Origin: Clostridia bacterium
Lineage (GTDB): Bacteria; Bacillota; Clostridia; Oscillospirales; Acutalibacteraceae
Assembly (NCBI GenBank): GCA_017430145.1
Contig: JAFRNP010000161.1
Location: 1-35,113 of the forward strand
Length of the DNA stretch: 35,113 nucleotides
Direction: 5' to 3'
A program made the position numbers and the translations under genes. Shown here piece by piece: positions 3,027 through 27,620 of this stretch. The number at the start of each line of letters is the position of its first letter. The stretch's first letter is position 1. The notes below the pieces were generated by a model, which worked only from the letters and a program-made list of their open reading frames with translations, was not told the origin of the DNA and did no database searches.

Positions 3027-3725
3027 TCATTCCGTCAGCAGTACTTTTTTCGGGCAAAAGCCCAGCGCGTCGGCGCTGATCAGGGAAAACAGGATCCCCC
3101 GCTCCGTAAACCGCAGCAGCCTGCCGGAGGTATCGCCGTGGACGTGCCCGAAATAGCACCGCGTAATGCCGAACTGCTCCAGCACCTCCATCAGCGGCTC
3201 CACCGTCTGCCCGTCCATGACGACGGGATAGTGCATAAACGCCACGGGCGTGCCGCCGAGCGAGAGCGCCTCTTCTATGGAGCGCGCCAGCCGCATGGCC
3301 TCCCGCCGGATGATCTTGCTGTTGTCCTCGGCGTCCTGCGCGTCGAAAAACCAGCCGCGGGTACCGCATACGGCGATATCGCCGACCCGGCAGGCGTTGT
3401 TGAACAGGAACCGGATGCTGTCAAAACCGTTGGCGTCCAGAAATTCCTGCATTTTCCGCATGGTACACCACCAGTAGTCGTGGTTGCCCTTGCCGATGAT
3501 CTTCTGGCCCGGCAGCGCGTGCAGGAACGCAAGATCCCGCTCGGCGTCCTTTATCTGCATCGCCCAGGAGATGTCCCCCGGGATCACCACGGTGTCTTCG
3601 GGCTTTACCAGCCGCCGCCAGGCGGCCTCCAGCCTTATCACATGGTCCTGCCAGCCGGGAAAGATGCACATGGGCTTATCCGTCCCGAAGGACAGGTGCG
3701 TGTCAGCGAGTACGTACAGCGCCAT
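3027..3725 (-). CDS. Metallophosphoesterase (calcineurin-like)
   Basis: A 232-aa cytosolic phosphoesterase if it starts at MALYVLADTHLSFG; an upstream in-frame Met lies inside thrC and is unlikely. The dinuclear-metal motifs appear in order: ADTH near the N-terminus, GDISWAM, GNHDYWW, MHYPVV and GHVHGD. All metal ligands expected for the calcineurin-like fold are present. The combination GDISWAM plus GNHDYWW is typical of small uncharacterised Firmicutes phosphohydrolases. The start lies 4 bp after the thrC stop, so the two are almost certainly co-transcribed and possibly translationally coupled. The substrate is unknown. Confidence 0.9.
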   Translation of the reverse strand: MALYVLADTHLSFGTDKPMCIFPGWQDHVIRLEAAWRRLVKPEDTVVIPGDISWAMQIKDAERDLAFLHALPGQKIIGKGNHDYWWCTMRKMQEFLDANGFDSIRFLFNNACRVGDIAVCGTRGWFFDAQDAEDNSKIIRREAMRLARSIEEALSLGGTPVAFMHYPVVMDGQTVEPLMEVLEQFGITRCYFGHVHGDTSGRLLRFTERGILFSLISADALGFCPKKVLLTE

Positions 3726-3729
3726 GGGA

Positions 3730-5223
3730 TCAGATCCCCAACAGGTCGTACACCGCCTGCTCCATTTCATCCTTCGTCACGACCCGGTCGAAACGGACCG
3801 CCTTGTTTTTCAGCGTTTTGAGCTGTTCGGGCGCGGGAACGCCTGTCAGCGCCTCCAGCTCCTCCACCATATCGAATTCGTTTTCCGCCGTAAAGCCGCC
3901 GTCCGTGAGTGCGGAGAGCACCGCCCGGCAGAACTTGTACGGGGAAGCGGTGGACGCGATGACCGTGGGCGTCTGATCGCCGGTCTTTTCCCGATAGGCG
4001 CTGCAGACGTTCACCGCCACGGCAGTATGCGTGTCGCAGAGGTAGCCGTTTTTTCTGAACGTGTCGGCAATAGTCGCTTTTGTCGCCGCATCGTCGCAGC
4101 AGCCGGCGGCAAACAGCTCCCTAAGCTTTGCAAGCGTTTCGCCGTCCACGGTATATTCCCCGTCCTCCTTCAGGCGCCGGAACAGCTCGGCCGTTTTATC
4201 GCTGTCGTCGCCGAGCAGATGGAACAGCAGCCGCTCCAAATTGCTGGAGATCAGGATATCCATGGAGGGAGAGACCGTCGTATGGAACGGACGCACACGG
4301 TTATAGCGCCCGGTGGTCAGAAACTCGGTCAGCACGTCGTTTTCGTTGGAGGCGCACACCAGCTTGTTCACGGGCAGCCCCATGCGCATGGCGTAGTACG
4401 CCGCAAGGATATTGCCGAAGTTGCCGGTGGGCACCGTAATGTTGATCTTTTCGCCGTTCTTCACCTTCCCGGCGGCAAGGAGGTCCGCATAGGCGGAAAA
4501 ATAGTAGACGATCTGCGGCACAAGCCTGCCCCAGTTGATCGAGTTCGCAGAGGAGAACGTCAGGTTTCCCGCGGCAAGCTTTTCGGCGATGGCAGGGTCG
4601 GTGAAGATCCGCTTCACGCCGTTCTGCGCGTCGTCAAAATTGCCGCGGATGGCGGCGACGCCCACGTTTTCGCCCTCCTGCGTCGTCATCTGCAGCTTTT
4701 GCATGGGGCTGACGCCGTCGGAGGGGAAGAAGACGAGGATGCGCGTACCTGGCACGTCCTTGAAACCCTCCAGCGCCGCCTTGCCGGTATCGCCGGACGT
4801 GGCGACGAGGATCACCGTGGTTTTGCCGCCCGACACGCGCGAAGCGGCGCCCGTCAGCAGATAGGGCAGAAGCTGCAGCGCCATATCCTTGAATGCGCAG
4901 GTCGGCCCGTGCCAGAGCTCCAGAATGTTCACGTTTTCATACAGATTGACGACCGGCGCCACGTTTTCGCTGCCGAAGCTGCCGGTGTAAGCACCGGCGG
5001 TATCCGCGTCGATCTCTCCGGCGGGATAGTCGGTCAGGAACAGGCGCAGCACGTCCCTGGCGCGTTCAATATAGGATTTGCCTGCGAGCGCCGCGATAAA
5101 ATCGGGCGTCACCTGCGGGACCTCGGTAGGCACGAACAGCCCGCCGTCTTTGGAAATACCGGCGGCGATAGCTTCGGAGGAAGAGACCCTGATCGTATTG
5201 TTTCTTGTGGATGTATATTGCAT
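3730..5223 (-). CDS. thrC: Threonine synthase
   Basis: This 497-aa enzyme converts O-phospho-L-homoserine to threonine with pyridoxal phosphate, the last step of threonine synthesis in the cytosol. The N-terminus SKDGGLFVP and the cofactor site HGPTCAFKDMA (Schiff-base Lys112) are diagnostic, as is the phosphate-binding region TSGDTGKAALEGFK. Its length matches the long (yeast/E. coli-like) subfamily. The start is preceded by GGGAGG. It is the promoter-proximal gene of the leftward cluster, with a sigma-A-type promoter at 5324-5352 and a roughly 95-nt structured leader. No other threonine-pathway gene is in the window. Confidence 0.96.
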   Translation of the reverse strand: MQYTSTRNNTIRVSSSEAIAAGISKDGGLFVPTEVPQVTPDFIAALAGKSYIERARDVLRLFLTDYPAGEIDADTAGAYTGSFGSENVAPVVNLYENVNILELWHGPTCAFKDMALQLLPYLLTGAASRVSGGKTTVILVATSGDTGKAALEGFKDVPGTRILVFFPSDGVSPMQKLQMTTQEGENVGVAAIRGNFDDAQNGVKRIFTDPAIAEKLAAGNLTFSSANSINWGRLVPQIVYYFSAYADLLAAGKVKNGEKINITVPTGNFGNILAAYYAMRMGLPVNKLVCASNENDVLTEFLTTGRYNRVRPFHTTVSPSMDILISSNLERLLFHLLGDDSDKTAELFRRLKEDGEYTVDGETLAKLRELFAAGCCDDAATKATIADTFRKNGYLCDTHTAVAVNVCSAYREKTGDQTPTVIASTASPYKFCRAVLSALTDGGFTAENEFDMVEELEALTGVPAPEQLKTLKNKAVRFDRVVTKDEMEQAVYDLLGI

Positions 5224-5237
5224 ATTCGGAACCTCCC

Positions 5238-5301
5238 GTCCCCTGCGGGGACCTTCGTTTTTCTCTGTTTTTTGCTTTGACCGCGGTTTTCAGCCGTCAA
5301 A
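5238..5301 (-). promoter_or_regulatory. Structured leader of thrC
   Basis: Two hairpins are visible in the leader on the minus strand. One pairs 5296-5301 with 5276-5281 (TTTGAC/GTCAAA). The other is GTCCCC-GCA-GGGGAC at 5238-5252, directly upstream of the GGGAGG ribosome binding site. There is no U-run after either, so this is not a plain terminator. A role in translation control is possible but unproven, and no known riboswitch was recognised. Confidence 0.4.
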
Positions 5302-5452: not shown

Positions 5453-5486
5453 CCAACTATTAAAAAAAGAAAGGATGATTTTTTTG

Positions 5487-7448
5487 ATGAAGAACAGAAG
5501 ATCCAGACGGTTTTTCGCCGTCCTGATCATGTGCATGGTCACCTTCCTGATCGGCACGTTCTCCGCCATGATGACCGAAACGCCCGACACGGCTGAAGAA
5601 GCAGCGATCAGCGAAGAGAACGCGGCGGTCTCCGAGGAAGCTGCGGAGAATGAGGCCGCTGCCGAAGACGCCGAAGACGCCGAAGCGGCTGAAGACGCGG
5701 AAACCGGGGAAGAAGCCAAGGCCGAAGAGGACGCCGAAGTCGACGGCGACGTGGTCCTGCTGACGACCGGACTTGACGTGTTCACGATCGGCGAAGGCGA
5801 AGACGCGGTGGATTACGACCTGACCGACGGCGAATCCGCGCAGGAATACGTTGACAACTACGCCGACAACCTGGAAGCGGACCCCGATTTTGAAGGCCAC
5901 GTCGCCGCGGCGATCGACAAGGTGCGCGAGGACGTGAAGGCATACGCGACCTTTTGGTCCCTGCTGCCGCCCATCATCGCCATCGTGCTGGCGCTGATCA
6001 CGAAGGAAGTGTACTCCTCCCTCGTCATCGGCATCATCGCCGGCGGCCTGATCTATTCCGGATTTAATTTTGAAGGCACCGTTGTGCATGTGATCAGCGA
6101 CGGGTTCATCGCGAACGTCGCGGACTCCTACAACATGGGCATCGTTCTGTTCCTGATCCTGCTCGGCGCGCTTGTCGCCATGATGAACAAAGCGGGCGGC
6201 TCCGCCGCTTTCGGCCGCTGGGCGACGAAACATATCAAGACCCGCACCGGCGCGCAGCTCGCCACGATCTGTCTCGGCGTGCTGATCTTTATCGACGACT
6301 ATTTCAACTGCCTGACCGTGGGCTCCGTTATGCGCCCCGTTACCGACGAGCATAAGATCTCCCGCGCAAAGCTCGCCTATCTCATCGACGCCACCGCGGC
6401 GCCCGTATGCATCATCGCGCCGATCTCCTCCTGGGCGGCGGCCGTGGCCGGCTTTGCCAGAGGCGCAGGCGCGGACAGCGGCATGAGCCTGTTTATCCAG
6501 GCGATCCCCTACAACTTCTACGCGCTTCTGACCATCGCCATGATGATCTTCCTGGCCGTGACAAGCTTCGACTTCGGCCCGATGAAGAAGCACGAGACGA
6601 ACGCGAAAGAAAACGGCGACCTGTTCACCACCGGCACCAAGCAGGCGGTGGAAGAGATGACCGTGAACGAGAAGGGCCGCGTGATCGACCTGATCTTCCC
6701 GGTGGTCGTCCTGATCATCTGCTGCGTGATCGGCATGATCTACTCCGGCGGCTTCTTTGACGGTGAAGGCTTCATCGACGCGTTCTCCAACTCCGACGCC
6801 TCCGTCGGCCTTGCCTACGGCGCGTTCATCGCCCTGATCATTGCCGTCATTTACTTCCTGATCAGAAGAGTCCTGACCTTCAAGCAGCTGATGGAAAGCC
6901 TGCCCGAGGGCTTCAAGGCAATGGTCTCCGCCATCATGATCCTGGCCTGCGCCTGGGCGCTCAAGGCCATGACCGATTCTCTCGGCGCGAAGATCTTCAT
7001 CTCCCAGATCATCGAAAACAGCGCAGGCTCCTTTGCGGCGTTCCTGCCGGCGATCATCTTCGCCATCGCCGTGGGCCTGTCCTTTGCCACCGGTACCTCC
7101 TGGGGCACCTTCGGCATCCTGATCCCGATCGTACTGAGCGTCTTCTCCGCGGGCGACCCGCTGACCATCATTGCGATCTCCGCCTGTATGGCAGGCGCCG
7201 TGTGCGGCGACCACTGCTCCCCCATCTCCGATACGACGATCATGTCCTCCGCCGGCGCGCAGTGCGACCACATCAACCACGTGTCCACGCAGCTGCCCTA
7301 CGCCTTGACGGTCGCGGGCGTATCGTTCGTGACCTATCTGATCGCGGGCTTCGTGACCCAGTGGTTCATCGTCCTGCCCATCGGCCTCGTGCTGATGATC
7401 GCGACCCTGTTCGTGCTCAGATCCGTGATGAACAAAAAATCCGCCTGA
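5487..7448 (+). CDS. NhaC-family Na+/H+ antiporter with acidic N-terminal extension
   Basis: A 653-aa polytopic membrane protein that should exchange Na+ (or another cation or organic substrate) for protons. The NhaC-type signatures are clear: ATGTSWGTFG near residue 533 and GDHCSPISDTT followed by CDHINHVSTQLPYA near residues 573-600. The start at 5487 is chosen because the promoter overlaps the upstream in-frame ATGs and a GAAAGGA site precedes it. Before the antiporter domain (from about residue 150) there is an extra part: a membrane segment at about 9-28, an Ala/Glu/Asp low-complexity tract at about 31-88, and a small acidic domain. The gene is monocistronic, with its own promoter and a terminator at 7470-7505. 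Confidence 0.9.
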   Translation: MKNRRSRRFFAVLIMCMVTFLIGTFSAMMTETPDTAEEAAISEENAAVSEEAAENEAAAEDAEDAEAAEDAETGEEAKAEEDAEVDGDVVLLTTGLDVFTIGEGEDAVDYDLTDGESAQEYVDNYADNLEADPDFEGHVAAAIDKVREDVKAYATFWSLLPPIIAIVLALITKEVYSSLVIGIIAGGLIYSGFNFEGTVVHVISDGFIANVADSYNMGIVLFLILLGALVAMMNKAGGSAAFGRWATKHIKTRTGAQLATICLGVLIFIDDYFNCLTVGSVMRPVTDEHKISRAKLAYLIDATAAPVCIIAPISSWAAAVAGFARGAGADSGMSLFIQAIPYNFYALLTIAMMIFLAVTSFDFGPMKKHETNAKENGDLFTTGTKQAVEEMTVNEKGRVIDLIFPVVVLIICCVIGMIYSGGFFDGEGFIDAFSNSDASVGLAYGAFIALIIAVIYFLIRRVLTFKQLMESLPEGFKAMVSAIMILACAWALKAMTDSLGAKIFISQIIENSAGSFAAFLPAIIFAIAVGLSFATGTSWGTFGILIPIVLSVFSAGDPLTIIAISACMAGAVCGDHCSPISDTTIMSSAGAQCDHINHVSTQLPYALTVAGVSFVTYLIAGFVTQWFIVLPIGLVLMIATLFVLRSVMNKKSA

Positions 7449-7469
7449 TCTTATCGAACCTTTACAAAG

Positions 7470-7505
7470 ACTCCGCTGTCCGTGACCCGGGCAGCGGAGT
7501 TTTTG
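7470..7505 (+). terminator. Intrinsic terminator after the antiporter gene
   Basis: ACTCCGCTG (7470-7478) pairs perfectly with CAGCGGAGT (7492-7500) and is followed by TTTTGT. It lies 22 bp after the stop codon. Confidence 0.85.
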
Positions 7506-7528
7506 TATTAAGCGGAGTTTTTGTATTA
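7493..7528 (+). repeat. 18-bp tandem duplication of a terminator arm
   Basis: The 3' arm and T-tract of the terminator (7493-7510) are repeated exactly at 7511-7528. The second copy lacks a matching 5' arm of its own but could pair alternatively with the first. Confidence 0.85.
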
Positions 7529-7764
7529 AAATCAATAAACAAAAAAAATATTTCAAATTTGGAACGCCGTTCCGCACGGTGATCAGGTGATCCTTCAGGA
7601 GACGGTTCCCGCTTGCCTTCCGCCGATAGGATGACCGTCCCCACGGTCGACCTTGCTGAGCTGCCTTCAGTTGTTCTCATCCCCACCTCAAGGGGAACGG
7701 CTTTCAAATGCCGCTTCTATAATCAAGCGCGAAGCGCTTCCGAATTTGCAACTTTGTAACTTTG
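7529..7764. other. Intergenic region between convergent antiporter gene and spoIIE
   Basis: No credible gene is seen. The stretch holds several short inverted repeats, including AAGCGC-GAA-GCGCTT near 7728-7742, and a CCGTCCCC/ACGGT-rich segment that loosely recalls the REP-like repeats at 19317 and 27444. It ends in a period-8 AACTTTGT repeat that runs into the spoIIE stop codon. Confidence 0.5.
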
Positions 7765-7774
7765 TTACTTTTCT
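7748..7774. repeat. Period-8 repeat at the spoIIE 3' end
   Basis: Two AACTTTGT units followed by TACTTTTC. The spoIIE stop codon (TAA read leftward, 7765-7767) is inside the repeat. Related arrays occur at 19204, 19480, 30632 and 34931. Confidence 0.6.
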
Positions 7775-10068
7775 TCTTTTATAAATATACACACCGCCGT
7801 CCGGTCGTCCTGTCTTCCCGGCTGGCGGATGCCGGCGGCGTTCAGCAGCAGCTCCGCCGTTTCGTCGGCGTCGGCGCCGCGGTGCCGGTACAAAAGGCTT
7901 TTATATTCCTCGGGCATACATACGGCGGCGCCGTCGGAGAGCAGCACGAGCTTATCCCCGGGCGCCAGCTTCAGGCGCACCGTGACGGTCTTCGGCTGCT
8001 GCAGGATCCCCAGCGGCATGGAGGAGGGTTCGAGCACCGCCGCCCGCTTTGATTTTTCGACCAGCGTCGCCGCCGCGCCGGCTTTGTACAGCACGGTCTC
8101 CCCGGTGCCCAGGTCCACCTGCACGAGATCCAGCGTCGCCAGCGTCTCCTCCTCCCCCGAAAGCATCAGCATCCGGTTTGCCGTTTCGATCGCGCACGCG
8201 GGGTCGATCCCCGCCTGCAGAAGGCGGCGGAGCATGGTCAGCACCAGGGTCGACTGCAGCGCGGCGGCGCTCCCTGTTCCCATGCCGTCGCTGAGAAGCG
8301 CGTAAAACGTGCCCGGCGGCACCGTAAAGGTCTCCACACAGTCGCCGCAGCGCGTCTGCCCGGTGGCAGGCGCCGTGCGCACGGCTGCTTCCGCCCTCAG
8401 GTTCGGCAGCACCGGAAACGTCAGCAGCGTCCCTTCGCCTTCGCAGCGCTCGGCGCCGGGCGCGGCAAAGCGCAGGTCCAGTTTTTCCTCCAGCAGGCCT
8501 TTCAGACGCCCGATCCCGGCGTTTTCGGGCACGCGCCTGCACAGCACGGTCAGCACGCCGCCGCCCGCATGGGTGAACCGGACGGCGCTGACGGCGTACC
8601 CCTGTCCGCGCAAAACGTTGCGGGCAAGAGCCGCCAGGTTCGGGTCGTCCTCCTCCCGCGCCCTTCCGGCGGCGGCTTCCATCACGCCTGCAAGCTGCGA
8701 GATCGCGGCGGCGCTCTGTGCGCGGCAGTCCCGTGCCGCCTGTTCGGCAGCCTGCCGCACCGACATCTCCCGCATACAGCTGCAGATCCCCTCCGCCGCC
8801 GACGCCGGGGACGGGCACAACGTGCGCAGGCGGGCAGGCAGGCTGCCGGCGTCCAGCGTCCCGGTCCTCCCGAGCGTTTCAGTCGCTTCGGCAAACGCCT
8901 TCTGCGTCAGCTCCAACGCGTCGCCGAAGCAGAAATCCTGTTTTTTGCAGTCCGCGCACACCGCCTGCCGCAGCCCGGCTGTCAGCGCTTCGGCGCTCGG
9001 GCGCTGCCGGTGGCCCAGCTGCTGCGACGCCGTCATCAGGGCACTGATCCGGCGCACCGCCTTTGCCGCTTTCAGGACCCCGAGCCGCAGAAACAGCCGC
9101 CCGGGGTCCCGTTCGGCAGGATCCATGGCGGAAAGCTTTTCCGAAAAGCCATCGGCAACGCGCTTCGGCAGGCAGATAAACAGCAGGATCCCCGCTCCCG
9201 CCTCCGCCACCCTCGCCACCGTACCGGGAGCGCCGCCGACCGAGAGCGCCAGCGCATAAACAAGCGCAAACACACTGCCCACCGCCGCTTTGCCGTAACA
9301 CGACACGATACCGCCGGCAAGCCCCGCCGCCGGCAGCGCAGCCAGCAGAAAACCGGCCCCGTCGGCGGTGCCGAGCACCAGTCCCGTACAGATGCCGACG
9401 ACGGCGCCGGCGGTCTCCCCGCCAATCAGCGCAGCAGCCATCACCAGCACAAAACCGGGGATATGCACCGGTACGAACGCGCCGAACCGGAACCGCACAA
9501 GCGAAAGCAGCAGCACGCTGCCCGAAAACAGGATCGCCGCCCGGTCCCCGGGCGCCGCCGGTGCAAAAATTCCGCCGTCCGGCGCCAGCAGGAAGACCCG
9601 GTAAAAAAAACAGGCGGCGGCAAACGCAGCCAGCGCCTTTGCAAAGCCCAGCAGCACCGACGCCGCATCCGGGGATGCGGCTGCCGCCACCGTTTCGGCG
9701 GCCAGCAGCACGGACAGAAACGCCATCATCCCGGCGGCCGGCGCCCCGACCTTCACGCGCAGCACGTACTTTGCCGCGCTTCTGAGCAGAAACACCAGCG
9801 TTACGGCGGCCACCTGCCGCAGTACGTCCAGGGAATCCCCGAAAACGAACGCGCCGACGCACGCGCCGAGGCTCGCGGGGATATACAGCCCCCCGGAGGC
9901 GCCGGCGCATAACGCCGCGGCAAACGGCGCCTCCTCCCCTTGAAATACGATCCCGGCAAGCGCCGCGCCGCACAGCGCCGTTCCCGCAGAAGGCGCCGCG
10001 CGTCTAAAAAGGTCCGTGAACGCTTCCCTGCTGCCCAGCGGCACCCTTTTTGTTTCCACCTTTTCCAT
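7765..10068 (-). CDS. spoIIE: Stage II sporulation protein E, membrane PP2C-type phosphatase
   Basis: This 767-aa protein dephosphorylates the anti-sigma-factor antagonist SpoIIAA in the forespore and so activates sigma-F. It has the standard layout: a short cytoplasmic N-terminus, about ten hydrophobic membrane segments (roughly residues 35-330), a central Cys-containing regulatory region, and a C-terminal PP2C-like domain. Metal-binding aspartates are visible in LSDGMGTG (Asp594) and VLLSDGAA (Asp712), matching the two key positions in the Bacillus protein. It is slightly shorter than the roughly 827-aa Bacillus version. It is transcribed alone from an unusually spaced promoter (10154-10186). 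It marks the host as a spore-former. Confidence 0.95.
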   Translation of the reverse strand: MEKVETKRVPLGSREAFTDLFRRAAPSAGTALCGAALAGIVFQGEEAPFAAALCAGASGGLYIPASLGACVGAFVFGDSLDVLRQVAAVTLVFLLRSAAKYVLRVKVGAPAAGMMAFLSVLLAAETVAAAASPDAASVLLGFAKALAAFAAACFFYRVFLLAPDGGIFAPAAPGDRAAILFSGSVLLLSLVRFRFGAFVPVHIPGFVLVMAAALIGGETAGAVVGICTGLVLGTADGAGFLLAALPAAGLAGGIVSCYGKAAVGSVFALVYALALSVGGAPGTVARVAEAGAGILLFICLPKRVADGFSEKLSAMDPAERDPGRLFLRLGVLKAAKAVRRISALMTASQQLGHRQRPSAEALTAGLRQAVCADCKKQDFCFGDALELTQKAFAEATETLGRTGTLDAGSLPARLRTLCPSPASAAEGICSCMREMSVRQAAEQAARDCRAQSAAAISQLAGVMEAAAGRAREEDDPNLAALARNVLRGQGYAVSAVRFTHAGGGVLTVLCRRVPENAGIGRLKGLLEEKLDLRFAAPGAERCEGEGTLLTFPVLPNLRAEAAVRTAPATGQTRCGDCVETFTVPPGTFYALLSDGMGTGSAAALQSTLVLTMLRRLLQAGIDPACAIETANRMLMLSGEEETLATLDLVQVDLGTGETVLYKAGAAATLVEKSKRAAVLEPSSMPLGILQQPKTVTVRLKLAPGDKLVLLSDGAAVCMPEEYKSLLYRHRGADADETAELLLNAAGIRQPGRQDDRTAVCIFIKEEK

Positions 10069-10274: not shown

Positions 10275-10303
10275 TTGCAAAATCTGTATTTTGATTCTAT
10301 AAT
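10275..10303 (+). promoter_or_regulatory. Promoter of the rlmB-like operon
   Basis: TTGCAA (10275-10280) and TATAAT (10298-10303) are 17 bp apart, in an AT-rich patch 54 bp before the start codon. It is divergent from spoIIE. Confidence 0.75.
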
Positions 10304-10356: not shown

Positions 10357-11133
10357 ATGGATTTTCCGGAAGAAAAACACGACCGCCGGGAGGAGGCCCC
10401 CCGCGAGGACCTGATCATCGGACGGGGCGCCGTGCGGGAGGCGCTGAAAAGCGGACGGCCCGCCCACGGCCTTCTGGTCCGCAAAGGGGAAAAGACCGGC
10501 GCCCTGCTGCCGATCATTGCCCAGTGCAAAGAAATGGGCATCCCGGTCAAGGAAGCGGACCAGAAAAAACTCGACTATATGTGCGGCCACCAGAACCACC
10601 AGGGCGTGATCCTGCTTGCCGCCGCCCACGAATACGCGACGCTCGAAGAGATCCTCGCCGCAGCCGAAAAGAAGGGAGAACCGCCCTTCCTCGTTCTGTG
10701 CGACGGCATCGAGGACCCGCACAACCTCGGCGCGATCATCCGGTCTGCGGAGGCGGGCGGGGCCCACGGCGTGGTCATTCCCGAGCGCCGCTCCACCGGC
10801 CTTACGGGCATCATCGGCAAAACCAGCGCCGGAGCGCTGGAATACATGCCGGTGGCGCGGGTCAAGAATATGACCGCCGCCATCCGCGAACTGCAAAAGA
10901 AAAACATCTGGGTGTACGCCGCCGACATGGACGGCGTTCCGTATGAGAAGGCCGATCTCGGCGGCGCCGTCGCCGTGGTCATCGGCAGCGAAGGCAAGGG
11001 CGTCAGCCGCCTTGTCAAAGAGACCTGCGACGGCAGCGTCTCCATCCCCATGCACGGGCGCATCAATTCCCTGAACGCATCCGTCGCCGCCGGTATCCTG
11101 ATCTTCAGGATCGCAGCATGCAGAACAGTCTGA
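10357..11133 (+). CDS. rlmB: 23S rRNA 2'-O-ribose methyltransferase, TrmH/RlmB family
   Basis: A 258-aa SPOUT-class enzyme that uses S-adenosylmethionine to methylate a ribose 2'-OH in RNA, most likely 23S rRNA guanosine (RlmB-type). The N-terminal substrate-binding domain starts with IIGRGAVREAL. The three SpoU motifs are clear: DGIEDPHNLGAIIRSAEA (motif 1), VIGSEGKGVSRL (motif 2) and IPMHGRINSLNASVAAGI (motif 3), which form the trefoil knot and cofactor site. GAGAGAGA-rich sequence precedes the start. It is the first gene of a rightward operon and ends 14 bp before the degenerate ATPase gene. RlmB is likely, but related TrmH paralogues cannot be excluded. Confidence 0.88.
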   Translation: MDFPEEKHDRREEAPREDLIIGRGAVREALKSGRPAHGLLVRKGEKTGALLPIIAQCKEMGIPVKEADQKKLDYMCGHQNHQGVILLAAAHEYATLEEILAAAEKKGEPPFLVLCDGIEDPHNLGAIIRSAEAGGAHGVVIPERRSTGLTGIIGKTSAGALEYMPVARVKNMTAAIRELQKKNIWVYAADMDGVPYEKADLGGAVAVVIGSEGKGVSRLVKETCDGSVSIPMHGRINSLNASVAAGILIFRIAACRTV

Positions 11134-11147: not shown

Positions 11148-14100
11148 ATGAGCGACAACAGAAAAAAGAAAAACGCAAAGAGACGGACGCAGCCCCCGCG
11201 CCTGAATTACGACGCGGAGATCTCCGATATCATCTCCGGCAAAGCGCTGCGCAACGACAGCCCGGATACGGAAAAAAAGGCGGAGATCGTGCTCCCGCGC
11301 GAGACCGAAGAGGATATCAAGCTCGACGTCAACGATGAACGCCGGTTCATAAAGACCGGCGAGACGCCGTTTGTCAGCGTTCGCTCCGACCGGATCGCAG
11401 CGGAGGAGGATACGGAGATCACCGGTTTTGCCGACCGGCTCGTGACGCCCGCCGCTCAGAAGCGCGTGCATACCGGGTTTACCGGAAAGCTCAACACCTA
11501 TGAGACGCTCCACGCCGCCGACGGGTCCCGCCGCATGATCACCCCCACGGCGCCCCCCGAGGCCCGGGAGGAAGACAACGGCGCGCAGAACGCCGCAGAG
11601 GGACCGGAGACGCCGTCGCTTTTCTCCGATTTTCTGGAAGCAAAAAAGGACGCCGCCGTTCTGACGGAGGCAAGCCTGCGCCAGGGCGGAGCCGGACAGA
11701 CGGGCGAGACCGCCGTTTCGGACGTGGATATCGGACAGATGACGTTCTTCCCCGAAGATATCGTACCGGACGAGGCGCCCGCAGGCGCCGCGGAAGAAGA
11801 AAAGGCGCCGGCCGTTCCCGAAGCGCCGCAGCAGCCGCTGTACTATGCGGAATTTGACGATATCGGCGACGGCGCTGACAAAAACGCCGACGGGGAGCCC
11901 GCAGGCGCATCCGTAGAAGATAAAGGCAGCCTGCTCAGAGAGCTTGCCGGCACCGCAGAGGAGGACGTGCGCCGCAATCCCGACCAGATGATGATGGAGG
12001 GATTCAACACCGCCCAATTGCCGAAGGTCTCCCCCGCAGAGGACGCTTTCTTCGATATCGAAGAGGCGCCGCCCGCCGACCCCGATAAAAAAGAAGCCCC
12101 CGCCGGCAGCGCCGCCGAAGGCAGCGCCCCTGCCGACGGCACGGACGAACTGGAACGGGAACTGAAAAAATCCCGCCAGAAACTGATCAACGATTTCCAT
12201 TTCTGGGACACCTCCGAAAAAACCTTTGAGGATACGGAGGATGAAAAACTCCCGGCGGATAAAAACCGCAAGAAAAAGAACCTGCCCGATTTCTTACGCG
12301 ACGTGCGCGGGCGGTTCCTGCACGTGGGTACGCCCTTTACGCCGGTCGATACCGACGAATACACGCCCGCTTCTTCCCACCGGGAGATCTTCACCCGCCT
12401 GCTGGAGCTGGACCGTCTGGTCCAGGTCAAAATGGCCGTGCTCGGCGTACTGGGCCTGCTGCTGCTGATCATTGACCTGCTGGTGCGTATCAGCGCAAAA
12501 AACAACAACGGCTATTTCCATATGTTCGGGGGCAGCTACGTGCTCTACGGCGCCATCAACCTGGTATTCGTGCTCGGGGGCGCGGGGATCCTGTTCCCCG
12601 ACCTTAAAAACGGCGTCGTCTCCTTACTGAAGGCACAGCCGAAGACCGATACGGCGCTGCTGTTCATGCTGGCGGCGACCGCCCTGCAGAGTTTCGGCGC
12701 CATGTTCACCAAGCTCCCGCTGGAGGGCACCATCCATCTGCTGGCGCCGGCGGCGCTGATCCTGTGCGTCCCCTATTTTCTCGCCAAGCATTTTTACTAT
12801 GACAACGCGCGGCAGTGCTTCAAGGTCCTTTCCGCCAACGGAGAAAAGTCGTATCTGCGCAGCGTCGCGGACAAGGCGTTCACCGCCCGTCTGCTGCGGA
12901 ACAAGCAGAATGAAGGCAACGTGGTGTACGCCGGCAAAACCAAATTCATCAGCGGGTTCCTTGCCAAAAGCGCCAACGCCGCCATTTCCGGCATGACGCG
13001 CTCCCGCTTCGTGCTGATCTCGGCCGCCGTCTCTTTCGTGATCGCCGTTCTTGCGCTGATCCTTTCCAAGTCCTTCGTCGTTTTCCTGACGATCGGGACC
13101 CTGTGCCTGATCTGCAGCTTCCCCGTCAGCTGCCTTGCGGTCTCCGGTATCTTTATTGCCAGGGAGAACCGGAATCTCTCGGTCAAATCCTCGTACGTGC
13201 TGAGCTACGCCGACGCGGACAGCCTCTCCGGGATCGACAACATCGCCGTTGACGCCGGCGAACTGTTCCAGGTCCGTTTAACTGGATGCATGACCGCCGA
13301 CGGCGTCAGCGAGAACCAGGCGCGCTTTGCCGCTGCCTCCCTCGCCTCCAAATCGGATTCCCTTCTGCGCAAGGCGTTCCGCGAGGCGATCCGCTCCTTC
13401 GGCACGATGCTGCCGCAGGCGGAGGATTTCACCTATGAGGACCGTCTGGGCCTCTCCGCCTGGATCAACGGCAACCGGGTGCTGCTGGGGAACGAGGCGC
13501 TTTTGACGAACCACAACGTGGAGCTGCCCGATAAGGAGAAGGTCGCCGCCATGCTGAAGAACGGCGCGCAGCCGATCTACCTTGCCATTGAAGGGCATTT
13601 TGCCGCCCTGTTCACCGCCGTCTACACACCGATCCCCAACGTTCGCCGCGGGATCCACGACCTGACGGCAGGGCATGCCGGCCTGCTTATCAGCACGACG
13701 GACGCCAATATCACCGAAGCCTTTGCCGAGCGGCTGCTCAAGCTCGCCCCCGGCAGCGTCAGGATCGTCAGCTACACCGACGGGCAGAAGCTGAACACCG
13801 CCCGCCATACCGTCAAGGAATCCGAGAACACGGGCATCGTGTTCACCGAGGCGTTTGACAGCCTCTGCCGCTGCGCATCCGCCGCCGCGAAGCTCGCGCG
13901 CATCCGGATGATGAGCCGCACCATCTGCACCGTATGCGGCTTCATACTGCTCGCGGTCGTCGCCGTGCTGACCCTCACCGAAAAATACACCGATATCGAC
14001 TCCTTCCTGCCGATCCTGCTGCAGGCGCTGGTCTGCGGCGCGTGCCTTGCGGCGCCGCTCATCATGTACCGCGGCGAACCGTCCGCCCCCGACGGCGGCA

Positions 14101-14840
14101 TGCCGCAGCCTGCCGCGCCGTCTTACGAGGAGGAAGAGGAGGATCTGGAGGCCAAATACCGCCGCCGCTACGAAGAACTGAGCGCCCGTGCCGCCGAAAG
14201 CCAGAATCCGCCGGTCATCCCCGAAAAGGAAGAAGAGACGGAAGGGAACGGGGCGGACCCCGCGTTTGAAAAGATCGAGGAGCCCACCGACGACCTGTTC
14301 TCAAAGACCACGAAGGACGCGCTGGACAGCTTTGCGGATACGCCCGCCGAACGCGCAAGACAGCGCGCAAGACAGGCGCGGAAGGAAAAAGAGGAACGGG
14401 AGCGCCCGCGCCCCGACGGCAGCCTCATCACCTCCGAAAGCATGCGCAAAACGTTTTCGGAGCTTGACAGCTACGTAGAGGACCTTGCCGGTTCCAAGAA
14501 CTTCGGCGACGGCAAAACGCGTACCGATTTCTCCCTGTTCACCACCGAAAGCCAGCGCCGCCGCGTCAGCGCCGAGGATATCGAGAACGATTATGAGCGC
14601 CGCCGCGCAGAGGAAAAAGCGGTTCGCGACACCTTTACGGCGCCCGAGATCCCGGACCTGCCCGACACGGAAAAGGACGACGTCTGGGAGGACGCCTACG
14701 AAGCCATTGAGATCCCCGAGGACGTTCCGCCGGCAGGCACGGTAGACGTATTTGACGACGCGCTGTTCAGCCGGTTTGAGGACGATGCGATCTTTTCCGG
14801 CCTGCAGGAGGAAGAGAGCAAAAGAAAAATCGATTTCTGA
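11148..14840 (+). CDS. Degenerate P1B-type ATPase-like membrane protein, 1230 aa
   Basis: A long membrane protein with acidic, probably disordered N-terminal (about 1-425) and C-terminal (about 975-1230) arms. The core has eight hydrophobic segments, near 428-450, 465-484, 503-521, 530-549, 619-640, 645-670, 925-943 and 952-973. This is the 4+2+2 topology of heavy-metal P-type ATPases. After the sixth segment, GIDNIAVDAGEL aligns by eye with the phosphorylation site of P-type pumps, but DKTGT is replaced by DAGEL (Asp702). A nucleotide-domain-like stretch (LSAWINGNRVLLGNEALL) and a hinge-like stretch follow; no TGE, CPC or GDGxND motif is seen. Transport is therefore unlikely and a structural or sensory role is possible. 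It is not assigned to any named family. Confidence 0.75.
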   Translation: MSDNRKKKNAKRRTQPPRLNYDAEISDIISGKALRNDSPDTEKKAEIVLPRETEEDIKLDVNDERRFIKTGETPFVSVRSDRIAAEEDTEITGFADRLVTPAAQKRVHTGFTGKLNTYETLHAADGSRRMITPTAPPEAREEDNGAQNAAEGPETPSLFSDFLEAKKDAAVLTEASLRQGGAGQTGETAVSDVDIGQMTFFPEDIVPDEAPAGAAEEEKAPAVPEAPQQPLYYAEFDDIGDGADKNADGEPAGASVEDKGSLLRELAGTAEEDVRRNPDQMMMEGFNTAQLPKVSPAEDAFFDIEEAPPADPDKKEAPAGSAAEGSAPADGTDELERELKKSRQKLINDFHFWDTSEKTFEDTEDEKLPADKNRKKKNLPDFLRDVRGRFLHVGTPFTPVDTDEYTPASSHREIFTRLLELDRLVQVKMAVLGVLGLLLLIIDLLVRISAKNNNGYFHMFGGSYVLYGAINLVFVLGGAGILFPDLKNGVVSLLKAQPKTDTALLFMLAATALQSFGAMFTKLPLEGTIHLLAPAALILCVPYFLAKHFYYDNARQCFKVLSANGEKSYLRSVADKAFTARLLRNKQNEGNVVYAGKTKFISGFLAKSANAAISGMTRSRFVLISAAVSFVIAVLALILSKSFVVFLTIGTLCLICSFPVSCLAVSGIFIARENRNLSVKSSYVLSYADADSLSGIDNIAVDAGELFQVRLTGCMTADGVSENQARFAAASLASKSDSLLRKAFREAIRSFGTMLPQAEDFTYEDRLGLSAWINGNRVLLGNEALLTNHNVELPDKEKVAAMLKNGAQPIYLAIEGHFAALFTAVYTPIPNVRRGIHDLTAGHAGLLISTTDANITEAFAERLLKLAPGSVRIVSYTDGQKLNTARHTVKESENTGIVFTEAFDSLCRCASAAAKLARIRMMSRTICTVCGFILLAVVAVLTLTEKYTDIDSFLPILLQALVCGACLAAPLIMYRGEPSAPDGGMPQPAAPSYEEEEEDLEAKYRRRYEELSARAAESQNPPVIPEKEEETEGNGADPAFEKIEEPTDDLFSKTTKDALDSFADTPAERARQRARQARKEKEERERPRPDGSLITSESMRKTFSELDSYVEDLAGSKNFGDGKTRTDFSLFTTESQRRRVSAEDIENDYERRRAEEKAVRDTFTAPEIPDLPDTEKDDVWEDAYEAIEIPEDVPPAGTVDVFDDALFSRFEDDAIFSGLQEEESKRKIDF

Positions 14841-16437: not shown

Positions 16438-16457
16438 TATTTAGAATGAAAAAGCGT

Positions 16458-17867
16458 TTATTCCTCGTTCTCTTCTTTCTCTTCCGCTTCCGCTGCGCCC
16501 TTCGCGGGCTTGCCTGCCGTTTTCAGGCTCTCAAAAAACGAAACGTAGGCGTTCACCCATCTGACAACGTTTTTCTCATCCGGCTTTTCCTTCAGCAGCG
16601 ATCTGATCCGGCGGAAGCGCACGACGTTTTTGCCCACGTCCAGCAGCAGGCGGCGCGCATCGGGATGCCCTACGATCTTTTTCGCCTTGTCCGTAAGGGC
16701 GCGCATACGCATGGAGGTCAGGATCTTAAAGATCCCCGCCTCATTGCCGAACATTTCAAGGTCCTCCGAGCTCACCACGTTCTCCTTGATGAAATACTCC
16801 AGGTCCTCCGTGGTCAAAAACGGGAAGACCGCCTTGATCACGGCGATCGTCGCCGCGCTGAAGCCGATCTGCTCAAAATAGTCAAACTGGTAGTTCCAGA
16901 GCGTCTCCCGGGTGAAGGCGCCGTTTTCATCCGACGCAATGCAGTTTGCAAGGATCCTGCCCGCGCGCATGGAGTAGCCGATACCGGAGCCCTTGAGCGG
17001 CACCGTCATGAACGCGGCGTCGCCGATGGCGGCGTAGCCGTCCGCCACCAGCAGGCTCAGAGGCTGGCGGATCGGGATATCGGGGGTACGCCCGCCGTAC
17101 AGCAGCGTATCTCCGATCTGCGGGGCGGCGTCCCTGAGTAAGGAAAGCTTTTCTTCGATATCCGCATCGGTCATATCATACATGGAACCGATCAGCACGT
17201 CCACATGGTCCTCGTTCGTGATCGCCCACATGATGCCGCAGAATTCGCCCGCCAATACGGAAACCAAATACTTGTGCTCCGGCTCTCCCGCCGCCTCGTT
17301 GCGGGTAAAATACGCGCGGTAGGCATGCAGCATATCAAAGCGCCCCGGTTCCTTTTCGATATTCAGGAAAGCAGGCAGGTTGCTTCTGACGGGCGAATAC
17401 AGTCCGCAGGCGTCGATCACCAGATCCGCGTACATATCCCCGTTTGCCGTTTTCACTCCCACCACGCGGCTGCCCAGCAGCATCGGGCCCAGGATCTCCA
17501 CACCGTAGTGAAACTGCACGCCCGCCCCTTCGGCAAGCCCGATCAGGTGGTCGTACAGCGCCTTGCGGTCGATCTCCACGTTGTAGGTCTCTCCGGCGTC
17601 GCCCTGCACGAGCGGCGGCAGGTCCGTTCCCGGTACCCGGAAGGAAATGGGCGTGCGCTTGACGCAGTACGCCTCCGGCACCGGGATCCCGGAGAGCTCA
17701 AAGCCGTCCAGATGGATGGAGTCCTTCTGGTCGTAGCCAAGCGCCTCCCGCTGTTTTTTTTCGTAAACCTCCACCCGGTACCCGGCTTCGGCAAGATAAT
17801 ACGCCGCAACGATCCCGCCGTGGCCGGCGCCGGCGACAATGATCCTTCTGTCCGTCATGATCGTCAT
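16458..17867 (-). CDS. FAD-dependent oxidoreductase, geranylgeranyl-reductase-like
   Basis: A 469-aa flavoprotein. The N-terminal Rossmann motif GAGHGGIVAAYYLAEAGY with a following acidic residue (VEVYEK) binds the FAD ADP moiety. DACGLYSPVRSNLP is the middle FAD motif, and the region around AIGDAAFMTVPLKGSGIGYS, with the GD dipeptide, contacts the flavin. This order fits the geranylgeranyl reductase/monooxygenase-like group; the substrate is unknown, and a role in lipid or quinone reduction is a family-based guess. A tail rich in Ala, Glu and Lys is unusual. The start is weakly supported: neither ATG (17867 or 17858) has a close ribosome binding site, while a GAAAGGAG lies about 58 nt upstream beyond a hairpin. 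Confidence 0.85.
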   Translation of the reverse strand: MTIMTDRRIIVAGAGHGGIVAAYYLAEAGYRVEVYEKKQREALGYDQKDSIHLDGFELSGIPVPEAYCVKRTPISFRVPGTDLPPLVQGDAGETYNVEIDRKALYDHLIGLAEGAGVQFHYGVEILGPMLLGSRVVGVKTANGDMYADLVIDACGLYSPVRSNLPAFLNIEKEPGRFDMLHAYRAYFTRNEAAGEPEHKYLVSVLAGEFCGIMWAITNEDHVDVLIGSMYDMTDADIEEKLSLLRDAAPQIGDTLLYGGRTPDIPIRQPLSLLVADGYAAIGDAAFMTVPLKGSGIGYSMRAGRILANCIASDENGAFTRETLWNYQFDYFEQIGFSAATIAVIKAVFPFLTTEDLEYFIKENVVSSEDLEMFGNEAGIFKILTSMRMRALTDKAKKIVGHPDARRLLLDVGKNVVRFRRIRSLLKEKPDEKNVVRWVNAYVSFFESLKTAGKPAKGAAEAEEKEENEE

Positions 17868-17880
17868 GGATCCGGAATTT

Positions 17881-17916
17881 GCATAAAAAAGGGATGAAGC
17901 TCCGGCTTTTTTATGC
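17881..17916 (-). promoter_or_regulatory. Hairpin between ribosome binding site and oxidoreductase start
   Basis: An 11-bp perfect inverted repeat (17881-17891 with 17906-17916, GCATAAAAAAG/CTTTTTTATGC) lies just upstream of the start codon. The only strong Shine-Dalgarno-like site, GAAAGGAG, is on its far side at about 17926-17933. The repeat could control translation, or the true start may differ. Confidence 0.5.
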
Positions 17917-22335: not shown

Positions 22336-24192
22336 TCAGATCGTTGCGCCCGCGAACTGGGCGTCGTAAAGCTCTTTGTAGAAACCGCCTTTGGCGATCA
22401 GCTCGTCGTGGGTACCGGTCTCCACGATGCTGCCCTCGTCCATCACGAGGATCGCATCCGCCTTGCGGATGGTGGAGAGCCGGTGGGCGATCACAAAACT
22501 GGTGCGGTCCGCCATCAGCTCCTTCATGGCGTTTTGGATCAGCAGTTCCGTACGGGTATCCACGGAACTGGTGGCTTCGTCCAGAATGAGGATATCGGGA
22601 TCGGCAAGGATCGCGCGGGCAATGGTCAACAGCTGCTGCTGACCCTGCGAAATATTGGCTGCGTCCTCCTCCAATACGGTATCGTAGCCGTCCGGCAGCA
22701 TCCGTATGAACGGATCCGCGCGGGCCGCCTCAGCCGCCGCAACGATCTCCTCCATCGAGGCGCCCTCCCTGCCGTAGGCGATGTTCTCCTTCACGGTGCC
22801 CTCAAACAGCCACGTATCCTGCAGCACCATGCCGAATACGTGCCGCAGTTCGTTTCGCGGGACGGTACGGATATCCGTGCCGTCTATTCTGATGACGCCG
22901 CCGTCCACGTCGTAGAAGCGCATGAGCAGGTTGACGATGGTGGTCTTCCCGGCGCCGGTGGGGCCCACGAGCGCGACGAGCTGGCCCGCCTCCACCTTCA
23001 GGCTCAGATTTTGTATCAGCGTTTTTTCCGCCGCGTAGGAGAAATCCACACCCGCCAGCTCCACGCTCTTATGGCGGTCTTCGCTCAGGTGGTTCTCCGT
23101 GCAGTCCGCCGGCTCGCTCTCCTGCTCCAGCACCTCAAAGACGCGCTCGGCGGAGGCCAGCGAGGACTGCAAGTGGTTCGCGATATTGCTCATGTCCACA
23201 ATGGGCTGCATGAACAGCTTGGAATAGACGAAAAACACGGTCATGTCGCCGATGCTGAGCTTGCCGCGCGCCACAAAAATGCCGCCGAAAATACAGATCA
23301 GGATATACCCGATGTTGCTGGTAAAGGTAATGATCGGCTGCAGCACGCCGGAATAAAACTGCGCCTTGCGGTCCACGTCGCACAGTTCCTGATTGATCTG
23401 TTTGAATTCCTCCACGGCACGCTTCGTGTGGCCGAACACCTTGACGATCCTATGGCCGGTGTACATCTCCTCGATATGGCCGTTCAGATCGCCCATGGTG
23501 CGCCAGTTTTCCCGGAAATACCTGCGGGAGATCCGCAGCAGCGCCAGCGCCAGCAGCAGCCCGAAAGGAAGAACGACGACCGAGATCAGCGTCATGATCG
23601 GGCTGATACACAGCATGATCACAAACACGCCCGTCACGGACACCACCGAGGTGATGATCTGGATCAGGTTATTCTGGAAGGTGTTCTGGATATTGTCGAT
23701 ATCGTTGGTGACGCGGCTGAGGATATCGCCTTTGGTGTGGGAATCGAAGTATTTCAGCGGCAGTTCCGAAAGCTTCCGGTTCAACAGCCGCCGCATCTTG
23801 AAAATCAGGTCGCGGTTCAGTCCCGCCATGGTAAAGTGCTGCAGGAACGAAGCGACGGAGCTGGCGGTATAGATGGCAAGGATGGTCAGCAGCACCTGCC
23901 CGATGGCGGACAGATCCAGCGGCTGCCCGTTGAGCTTCACTTTGATCAGATCGGTGATGCCGTCGATGATATCGCCGATATAGACCGGGCCGATAATGCT
24001 GAGGACCGTGCTGATGATGCTGATAACGACGACAAGCGTCATCTTCAGTTTCTTTTCCCACAGCAGCGCCAGCATTTTTTTTGCGGCGGCAGTCATATTT
24101 TTCGGCTTGTCTTCCTGCGTCTTCTTTATGTCGGCGTAATCCCGGAACTTGCTGTGGCGCTTTTCGCGCGCACGGTTTTTTTGCTCTTTCAT
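22336..24192 (-). CDS. Heterodimeric ABC exporter subunit with canonical ATP site residues
   Basis: A 618-aa half-transporter with six membrane helices (about residues 55-340) fused to an ATPase. Walker A is GPTGAGKTT, the signature is ISQGQQQ, Walker B is ILILDEATSSVD with the catalytic Glu, and the switch His is in VIAHRLSTI. The ISQGQ form is typical of the canonical partner in asymmetric exporters of the TM287/288 type. It overlaps the partner gene by 4 nt (ATGA). The pair should export hydrophobic compounds such as drugs or lipids; the substrate is unknown. An N-terminal Lys/Arg-rich stretch of about 50 residues is longer than usual. Confidence 0.93.
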   Translation of the reverse strand: MKEQKNRAREKRHSKFRDYADIKKTQEDKPKNMTAAAKKMLALLWEKKLKMTLVVVISIISTVLSIIGPVYIGDIIDGITDLIKVKLNGQPLDLSAIGQVLLTILAIYTASSVASFLQHFTMAGLNRDLIFKMRRLLNRKLSELPLKYFDSHTKGDILSRVTNDIDNIQNTFQNNLIQIITSVVSVTGVFVIMLCISPIMTLISVVVLPFGLLLALALLRISRRYFRENWRTMGDLNGHIEEMYTGHRIVKVFGHTKRAVEEFKQINQELCDVDRKAQFYSGVLQPIITFTSNIGYILICIFGGIFVARGKLSIGDMTVFFVYSKLFMQPIVDMSNIANHLQSSLASAERVFEVLEQESEPADCTENHLSEDRHKSVELAGVDFSYAAEKTLIQNLSLKVEAGQLVALVGPTGAGKTTIVNLLMRFYDVDGGVIRIDGTDIRTVPRNELRHVFGMVLQDTWLFEGTVKENIAYGREGASMEEIVAAAEAARADPFIRMLPDGYDTVLEEDAANISQGQQQLLTIARAILADPDILILDEATSSVDTRTELLIQNAMKELMADRTSFVIAHRLSTIRKADAILVMDEGSIVETGTHDELIAKGGFYKELYDAQFAGATI

Positions 24193-25964
24193 GCGTTCGC
24201 CCTCCTTTCGGAGATCTCCTCGGGGGAGAGCTGCGACTGCGCGATCTCCCGGTAGACGGCGCAGTTTTCCATCAGCTCGTCGTGCGTACCGATGCCGGCG
24301 ACGCCGCCGACGTCGAGCACCACGATCTTGTCTGCGGAGAGGATGGTGCCCACCCGCTGCGCCACCACGATAACGGCGGCGTCCTTCAGCTCTTCCCTGA
24401 CGGCAAGCCGCACCGCAGCGTCCGTTTTGAAATCCAGCGCGGAAAAGCTGTCGTCAAAGATATAGATCCCGGCGCGGCGGACCAGCGCCCGCGCGATGGC
24501 GATCCGCTGCTTCTGACCGCCGGAAAGGTTGGTGCCGCTCTGGCTGACGTGCGCGTCCAGGCCTTCCGGCAGCGCACGCACAAAATCCGCCGCCTGCGCC
24601 AGTTCCAGCGCGCGCCAGACCTGCGCGTCCGTGGCGTCCGGCATACCGAAGCAGACGTTTTCCCGTACGGTGCCGCTGAAAAGCGAGGCCGTCTGCGGGA
24701 TATAGCCGATCAGGCTGTACAGCGTCTCGGCGTCCATATCCTTCACGTTCACGCCGTCCACTTCCACGCTGCCGGACGTTGCGTCGTACAGCCGGGGGAT
24801 CAGATTGACAAGGGTGGATTTGCCGCTGCCGGTGCCGCCGATTATGGCCGTCGTCTGTCCGGGCAGCGCCGTAAAGGAGACGTGCCGCAGGATCGCGTCC
24901 TTTGAACCGGCAAAACCGAAGGACACGTCGTTGAACGTCACAGTGGAGCGTTTGACGGGGTCGGGCATAACGGGCTTTTCCGGCGGCAGGATCTCCGGCT
25001 CCAGGTCCAGCACCTCCAGAATGCGTTTGGCGGAAATGTTTGCCCGCGGCACGATCACGAACATGCTGCCCGCCATAACAAGGGCGGCGACGATCATGAT
25101 CATGTAAACGATAAACGCCTGCAGGTCGCCGATGGTATTGGCGATCTTTGCCGCCTCCAGCACCGGGTCCATGCTGTCGATATTTCGGGCGGCGGCAAGG
25201 ATCAGCAGACTTACGCCGATAAACGCCAGCACAATGCTGGCAGGGATCAGTACCGAAAAGATCCGCGCTATGCGCAGCGCGATATCCGCCAGCTCGGCGT
25301 TCTTTTCGTCAAATCTGGCGTCCTCATACGCCGATCTGTTGAACGCCCGGATCACGCGGATCCCGGAGAGCTTTTCGCGCACCAGATGGTTGAGCCGGTC
25401 GGTCAGCTTCTGCCGCTTCTTAAAAAGCGGCTTTACAAGCTTCAGTACCAACGCGGCAAGACCGCCGATCACGGGAAGCACCGAAAAGATATACAGCGCC
25501 AGCCGCGCGTTCATGATCAGCGCCATCACCGTTCCGCCGACCAGCAGCACCGGCGCCGCCAGCACCATACGCACCATGACCAGAATAAAATCCTGCAGCT
25601 GCTTTACGTCGTTGGTGCTGCGGGTGATCAGAGACGCGGCGCCGATCTTGTCAACGTCACACTGGGACAGGCTCTCCACTTTCAGAAAAACCTTTTCCCG
25701 CAGGATCATCCCGTACATCGCCGCAAGCTTTGACGTACAGTAGGCGTTCAGCACGGAAAACAACAGGCCGAGAACGGCGCCGCCGAACATGGCCAGCCCC
25801 ATCTGCTTAATATAGACAAGGTCCTTGTTTCCGATCCCGTTGTTGACGATCTGCGACATCAGCGCAGGAAGCAGCAGCGCCATACCCTGGCTGACGAGCA
25901 TCAGCAACACGGACAGGGCCACGTATTTTTTGACCGGTTTCAGAAAACCGAGTATCCGGATCAA
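24189..25964 (-). CDS. Heterodimeric ABC exporter subunit with degenerate ATP site
   Basis: A 591-aa half-transporter whose six helices occupy about residues 15-310. Walker A is GGTGSGKST and the signature LSGGQKQR is intact, but the Walker B end is IFDDSFSALD (Asp in place of the catalytic Glu) and the switch His is Gln (VVAQRVGTI). This is the pattern of the TM287-type subunit, in which one of two ATP sites is inactive. It forms an operon with the following 618-aa subunit through a 4-nt overlap. GGGAGGTG precedes the start. The promoter is unclear; a TATAAT at 26005-26000 lacks a good -35. Confidence 0.93.
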   Translation of the reverse strand: MIRILGFLKPVKKYVALSVLLMLVSQGMALLLPALMSQIVNNGIGNKDLVYIKQMGLAMFGGAVLGLLFSVLNAYCTSKLAAMYGMILREKVFLKVESLSQCDVDKIGAASLITRSTNDVKQLQDFILVMVRMVLAAPVLLVGGTVMALIMNARLALYIFSVLPVIGGLAALVLKLVKPLFKKRQKLTDRLNHLVREKLSGIRVIRAFNRSAYEDARFDEKNAELADIALRIARIFSVLIPASIVLAFIGVSLLILAAARNIDSMDPVLEAAKIANTIGDLQAFIVYMIMIVAALVMAGSMFVIVPRANISAKRILEVLDLEPEILPPEKPVMPDPVKRSTVTFNDVSFGFAGSKDAILRHVSFTALPGQTTAIIGGTGSGKSTLVNLIPRLYDATSGSVEVDGVNVKDMDAETLYSLIGYIPQTASLFSGTVRENVCFGMPDATDAQVWRALELAQAADFVRALPEGLDAHVSQSGTNLSGGQKQRIAIARALVRRAGIYIFDDSFSALDFKTDAAVRLAVREELKDAAVIVVAQRVGTILSADKIVVLDVGGVAGIGTHDELMENCAVYREIAQSQLSPEEISERRANA

Positions 25965-27579: not shown

Positions 27580-27620
27580 GATTGATGACTTGATTGACTC
27601 GATTGCGTCCGATCGATCCC

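Follow-up and report, generated by a model that had tools for sequence, protein, structure and literature searches.

A P1B-ATPase-like gene next to rlmB

The window analysed here is a stretch of 35,113 nucleotides (nt) from Clostridia bacterium (GenBank assembly GCA_017430145.1, contig JAFRNP010000161.1), which GTDB places in the order Oscillospirales and the family Acutalibacteraceae. An open reading frame (ORF) on its plus strand, preceded by the 23S rRNA methyltransferase gene rlmB and by a putative ribosome-binding site, AAAGGAT (noted by eye), encodes a large membrane protein, here termed the pseudo-ATPase. By sequence comparison the protein is a relative of the P1B-type metal pumps, the homology being firm, and belongs to a family from which the catalytic motifs of the pumps have been lost. 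It has no Pfam match above cut-off, nor a Pfam metal-binding domain. The layout of the gene and its upstream neighbour is given in Table 1.

Searched on its own, the window protein matches the Legionella copper ATPase 3rfu at 1.6e-7, and the NCBIfam CopA model matches it at 1.7e-12. A profile built from 54 sequences of the family matches 3rfu with an E-value of 8.1e-35 over a region spanning transmembrane segment (TM) 5 to the phosphorylation (P) domain, the similarity to CopA in the nucleotide-binding (N) and P domains covering profile positions 206–484; a match of the first helices to 3rfu is also listed, which is not significant alone. The CopA model finds 52 of the 54 members at 1e-3, and Pfam matches the core parts of the family weakly (E1-E2_ATPase in 4/54, Hydrolase in 1/54). 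Between the matched parts, the actuator region is represented by 61 profile positions vs 127 CopA residues.

P1B pumps have hydrophobic segments in a 4+2+2 topology. The initial annotation had described eight segments in this order, and hydropathy confirms them in both the window protein and the mean of the 54 sequences, with TM5/6 forming a single long peak in both and TM7/8 merged in the mean. Among the hallmarks of the P-type superfamily, the family shows sequence homology in the P and N domains and lacks DKTGT, TGE and GDGxND; among those of the P1B group it shows eight helices in the 4+2+2 order, by hydropathy only, and lacks CPx in the sixth helix and the HP motif. Judged from its sequences, the family descends from P1B pumps yet lacks the motifs that define them.

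Table 1. Features of the pseudo-ATPase gene and of the rlmB region upstream of it (res, residues)
Feature	Position	Strand	Basis
Entire gene, encoding a P1B-ATPase-like membrane protein of 1230 residues with degenerate catalytic motifs	11148..14840	+	ORF boundaries exact; homology searches
N-terminal arm, acidic, low hydrophobicity, res 1-404	11148..12359	+	predicted disorder, from composition alone
QMMMEGF, short arm motif of Q[MLI]..GF type	11985..12005	+	sequence
TM1-TM4, hydrophobic segments (= MA, MB, M1, M2 of P1B pumps)	12426..12794	+	hydropathy; alignment to CopA 117-208, non-significant alone
Shrunken actuator-domain remnant without TGE	12795..13004	+	profile alignment to CopA
TM5-TM6, Pro659 at CPC place, flanking Cys gone	13005..13148	+	alignment
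Former phosphorylation site GIDNIAVDAGELF, res 695-707; D702 aligns with DKTGT Asp	13230..13268	+	alignment
Nucleotide-domain-like lobe, best conserved part; GN retained, HP His gone	13347..13505	+	alignment
Tyr826, replacing an Asp invariant in the compared genuine pumps	13623..13625	+	alignment
TTDANIT, res 850-856, TGDN-loop remnant; GDGxND segment after it deleted	13695..13715	+	alignment
TM7-TM8	13914..14066	+	hydropathy
C-terminal acidic arm, res 986-1230; only in window's genus	14103..14837	+	composition; tail lengths
rlmB, 23S rRNA G2251 2'-O-methyltransferase	10357..11133	+	TIGR00186, 1.7e-69
Sigma-70-like promoter match upstream of rlmB	10275..10303	+	consensus match only

Catalytic motifs are lost and new positions conserved

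To count motifs, 133 members, including that of the window, were kept from 186 loci after partial and near-identical ones had been dropped, and were aligned with 37 genuine pumps. These pumps were drawn from profile matches, so that pumps near the family are perhaps over-represented, and the place of TGE is gapped in 8 of the 37.

The aligned sequences indicate that the loss of the catalytic motifs is family-wide. The Lys of DKTGT is found in none of the 133 members; DKTGT and GDGxND are kept in all 37 pumps. The Asp of DKTGT, which the initial annotation described as kept, is indeed present in the window, but family-wide it is kept in only 92/133, and in 24/133 neither the first nor the second motif position is Asp. 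The fourth position, Gly in pumps, is Asp or Glu in 121/133. Conservation of the AGEL that follows the Asp in the window had also been raised; the family version of the site instead reads roughly D[AS]x[DE][LI]F. GDGxND falls in an alignment gap in 133/133 members, and the string GDGxN occurs in 0/133 proteins. In the actuator, the Thr and Gly of TGE are gapped in 133/133, with a lone aligned Glu in 2/133. The His of the HP motif (Ser-Glu-His-Pro) is absent throughout (0/133), and at the place of CPC the Cys residues are found in 3 and 6 of 133 members, the Pro being retained in 117/133.

An Asp invariant in all 37 pumps, presumably their hinge Asp, is Tyr in 128/133 members. The segments GIDNIAVDAGELF, GNRVLLGNEALL and TTDANIT were all found where they had been described; TTDANIT, taken earlier for hinge-like, aligns instead with the P-domain TGDN loop. 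The Asp of TGD (D852) is present in 133/133 members. Neither G768 nor G781 varies in the family or in the pumps (133/133 and 37/37), which is what a retained fold would predict. The N-domain-like lobe retains GN and has new conserved Tyr, Glu, Trp, His and Asp-x-Asn positions.

A plain string check agreed: DKTGT and GDGxN are missing from 113/113 members, 28 of which represent 20 further families within the order, and the DKTGT, GDGxN, TGE, CPC-like and HP strings are all present in 20/20 control pumps. Stray motif-like strings were seen, namely DKTG in the arm of 1/133, TGE-like and CPC-like strings in 3/113 each, and HP in many of the 113. The window protein itself lacks DKTGT, GDGxN, CPC and a TGE at the actuator position, as initially reported, and has the string TGE twice in its N-terminal arm.

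The family is under purifying selection, with ratios of nonsynonymous to synonymous substitution (dN/dS) of 0.037–0.115 for the core and 0.083–0.189 for the arm (10 close pairs, several of which share a genome). With catalytic residues lost and selection retained, the family fits the description of a pseudoenzyme, presumably inactive as read from its motifs. In a tree of 41 of the 133 members and all 37 genuine pumps, the members all lie on one side of a branch with a support of 100 in the Shimodaira–Hasegawa-like approximate likelihood ratio test (SH-aLRT), or 99 without the columns around four motifs. Several of the pseudo-ATPase rows are long-branched, so the order within the family is not trusted. 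Since it belongs to a family with a conserved pattern of its own, the window protein is no lone broken pump.

The family is widespread in one order

Within the GTDB family of the window, tblastn matches the core in 185 of 200 genomes, genuine pumps possibly among the matches. Across the order, 289 of 295 genomes match the profile at 1e-10, a score that pumps can reach, the other six being at most 75% complete; 272 of 295 match at E ≤ 1e-38 (a hand count, motifs having been checked in part of these). Of 291 genomes sampled from the class, 35 pass 1e-30, namely 12 of the same order and 23 others, the best of the latter at 3.1e-36. Among those 23, the 18 for which loci were available match DKTGT pumps in part. 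The family was not seen in the other 279 genomes of this sample, 236 of them matchless and of kinship not shown. In a phylum sample, 2 of 199 genomes pass 1e-38, both from the same order.

The records of the relatives carry the names 'Oscillospiraceae', 'Ruminococcaceae', 'Clostridiales' and 'Clostridia', and include Candidatus Limimonas (Acutalibacteraceae in NCBI) and Candidatus Onthovicinus (Oscillospiraceae). Nearly all are metagenome-assembled genomes, many from gut, rumen or faeces to judge by their titles. Together, homology, motif counts and order-wide conservation give strong support to the original proposal of a P1B architecture with catalysis lost.

Association with rlmB

In the window, the stop codon of rlmB lies 14 nt before the start codon of the pseudo-ATPase gene, and no promoter was detected between them by consensus matching. 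RlmB is encoded upstream on the same strand in all 42 loci of a first set (the window and 41 others), with a gap of at most 81 nt or an overlap in 40; in the remaining two it is ~3.1 and ~4.6 kb away. A wider set of 61 loci includes 19 from other families; a gene of the rlmB cluster is found in 60 of the 61 and is directly upstream in 58. A third set of 127 loci, which overlaps the other two and was queried with the window RlmB, has rlmB adjacent in 110 and farther away in three (L163 and L084, frame interrupted, and L097); 12 have too little sequence, and in two no rlmB was found with this query. Of these two, L233 has an adjoining rlmB by clustering and L218 has none. The putative operon with an rRNA methyltransferase, proposed in the initial annotation, is supported by gene order, and far more strongly than could be known from one sequence.

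The neighbourhood of the pseudo-ATPase gene is often rich in translation genes. One gene cluster comes within two genes downstream in 15 of the 61 loci, and its member in locus L220 is elongation factor G-like. In L220, this gene (NF009381), a short ORF and an RsuA-like gene lie downstream of the pseudo-ATPase gene, and they are clustered likewise in L226, L046 and others. In L232, from another family (f2), rplU, rpmA and obgE stand ahead of the rlmB/pseudo-ATPase pair. The next gene in the window itself encodes a glycosidase.

On the other side of rlmB and divergent from it, the window has a SpoIIE-like gene (7765–10068, minus strand; PF07228, 1.7e-24), whose cluster is found near rlmB in 5 of the 61 loci, including the window.

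Variable arms around a constant body

The window protein has long acidic arms on both sides, as first described: Asp and Glu make up 21.8% of the N-terminal arm vs 13.1% for Lys and Arg, and 27.8% vs 15.1% of the C-terminal arm. The long C-terminal arm is however peculiar to the window's genus, since among 124 non-redundant members a tail of more than 60 residues is present only in the window and two relatives of the same genus (258, 288 and 67 residues). N-terminal arms range from 109 to 1108 residues in these 124 members, those without the first 30 profile positions having been excluded.

A Q..GF pattern occurs in 65 of the 124 arms, where shuffled arms give 0.75 on average, and for WS.EEID.LL-like motifs the corresponding figures are 33 and 0.35, although these patterns were picked after viewing the alignment and the contrast with shuffled arms is therefore inflated. 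A shared partner recognized through the arm motifs was sought among the other ORFs in 2.2 Mb of loci and gave no lead: the seven matches outside the known members comprise three missed members and four seemingly unrelated proteins, an elongation factor G-like ORF appearing twice among the latter. Nearly armless members exist (L175, 553 residues in total; L265, in which ~35 residues precede the first helix and the locus end truncates the frame), which makes the body the constant part. The arm is short also in L226 (680 residues).

Proposed role and alternatives

We consider it probable that the protein is a pseudo-P1B-ATPase. A metal pump of P1B type, present in the ancestor of the window's GTDB order, would have lost its phosphorylation machinery and become a non-pumping membrane protein, running no ATP-driven transport cycle. 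The eight-helix body would anchor the N/P-domain-like lobe at the inner face of the membrane, and the lobe, together with the long and presumably disordered arm and its short motifs, may offer the surface to which a partner or ligand binds, so that the protein would act as a scaffold or receptor co-produced with RlmB. The earlier suggestion of a pump repurposed as a scaffold or sensor appears plausible.

Several observations weigh against this account. The loss of ATPase activity is inferred from motifs, and as some members are almost without an arm, the arm cannot be the whole function. The family is also missing from some genomes that keep rlmB. Fifteen genomes of the GTDB family have no tblastn match, and only one of these (G178) has a family-like profile match. 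Among the 11 of good quality, the profile finds nothing in nine, all of 0.9–1.4 Mb, and gives weak partial matches in the other two. rlmB scores over its family cut-off in six of these nine genomes without the pseudo-ATPase and in G099, that is in 7/11; the other four fall below it, two of them with no rlmB match whatever. Two of these four genomes have an rlmB-keeping genus mate, so assembly gaps may explain part of this. Among small genomes that keep the pseudo-ATPase, rlmB is kept in 8/8. The pseudo-ATPase is therefore dispensable in reduced genomes, with RlmB independent of it, which speaks against an obligate partnership.

In seven rlmB loci of the pseudo-ATPase-less genomes, rlmB is followed by the contig end (two), by another ORF on the same strand (four) or only by an ORF of 100 residues ~1 kb on (one). 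In one genome without the pseudo-ATPase (L267), two short ORFs sharing MKKMLSFISAAVLSSC come after rlmB. A link with sporulation was considered and rejected, Spo0A being present in 11/11 genomes without the family and missing from 2/12 others.

A second possibility, which we hold as tentative, is a sensor: a remodelled pocket in the N-domain-like lobe would take up a nucleotide or some other ligand, and the lobe would pass the signal on via the arms or the membrane part. The lobe is the best conserved part of the protein, with its GN and its new conserved positions, and TMEM94, a P-type-like protein without TGES, bound AMPPCP with micromolar affinity and had no ATPase activity in a cryo-electron microscopy study, according to its accessible text (PMC12134183). 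Against a sensor of this kind stand the complete loss of the HP His and the fading of several of the new residues in divergent families (Trp in 4/27).

It is rather doubtful, though worth stating, that the family is the first of bacterial pseudo-P-type ATPases, an order-wide receptor derived from a copper pump which, with RlmB and the translation genes nearby, would couple the maturation of ribosomes, or translation itself, to a ligand or the membrane.

The protein might still be a transporter that works without phosphorylation, by facilitated transport or flipping through its retained helices. The eight hydrophobic segments and the Pro of TM6 are compatible with this, but with nearly all CPC Cys gone and no energy-coupling motif left we regard it as improbable. 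An ordinary active P1B pump with unusual motifs is more improbable still: the profile homology to CopA would suit it, as would the phosphorylation-site Asp that 92 of 133 members keep, but the Lys of DKTGT, the His of HP, GDGxND and an in-place TGE are all wanting, and in 24 members neither of the first two motif positions is occupied by Asp. A decaying pseudogene or mis-called frame, as a few loci whose frame is split or carries an in-frame stop (L084, L163, L180) might suggest, can be practically discounted, given long open frames in nearly all listed members, order-wide retention and strong purifying selection, with dN/dS far from the ~1 expected under decay.

Comparison with known systems and significance

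P-type ATPases are described, in the accessible part of one source, as pumps that share a phosphorylation motif as their signature (PMC10654040). With CopA (P1B-1, 3rfu) the family shares the 4+2+2 segment order, the Pro at the CPC place and sequence similarity in the N and P domains. It differs in lacking DKTGT, TGE, HP, the hinge Asp and GDGxND, in the near loss of the CPC Cys, in an actuator of half the size and in its long arms.

TMEM94/ERMA, likened here by description, also has P-type-like cytosolic domains, lacks TGES and is of disputed pump status, being argued in another paper to be a Mg2+ ATPase (PMC12134183, PMC13322241, as far as their available text goes). In contrast to the family, it is a human protein of the endoplasmic reticulum with ten helices, is structurally nearest to SPCA and keeps D417, by the available text of PMC12134183. 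Pseudokinases and other pseudoenzymes, again likened by description, have lost catalytic motifs in a fold thought to be kept, but pseudokinases are related to protein kinases and not to membrane pumps (PMC4718504, accessible text). No description of the family was found in the literature on non-catalytic P-type ATPases, on rlmB with P-type ATPases or on Oscillospirales with either, subscription papers lying mostly outside the search; TMEM94 was the sole other P-type-like protein with disputed pump status that turned up.

If the proposed account is true, the P-type scaffold has a second use, kept order-wide after the loss of the catalytic motifs, and the family offers a large natural sequence set on what N and P domains do without phosphorylation. 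That the family is kept under selection beside a ribosome-modifying gene suggests that an ancient pump has taken on another role, and provides a lead to the function of a gene left unnamed by the tested Pfam and NCBIfam models.

Other genes of the window

On the minus strand, the window carries hydF, hydG and hydE in a row ([FeFe] hydrogenase maturation; 26187–30167), two adjoining ABC transporter genes that encode both membrane and ATPase domains (22336–25964) and a cation diffusion facilitator transporter gene (33996–35036; TIGR01297, 1.3e-72). Long ORFs without a Pfam match at 0.001 lie at 3484–5280, 5460–7577 and 1175–2959, the first two opposing other long ORFs. Two further plus-strand ORFs without a Pfam match, at 16446–17141 and 17205–17897, overlap a longer ORF on the opposite strand and may not be genes.

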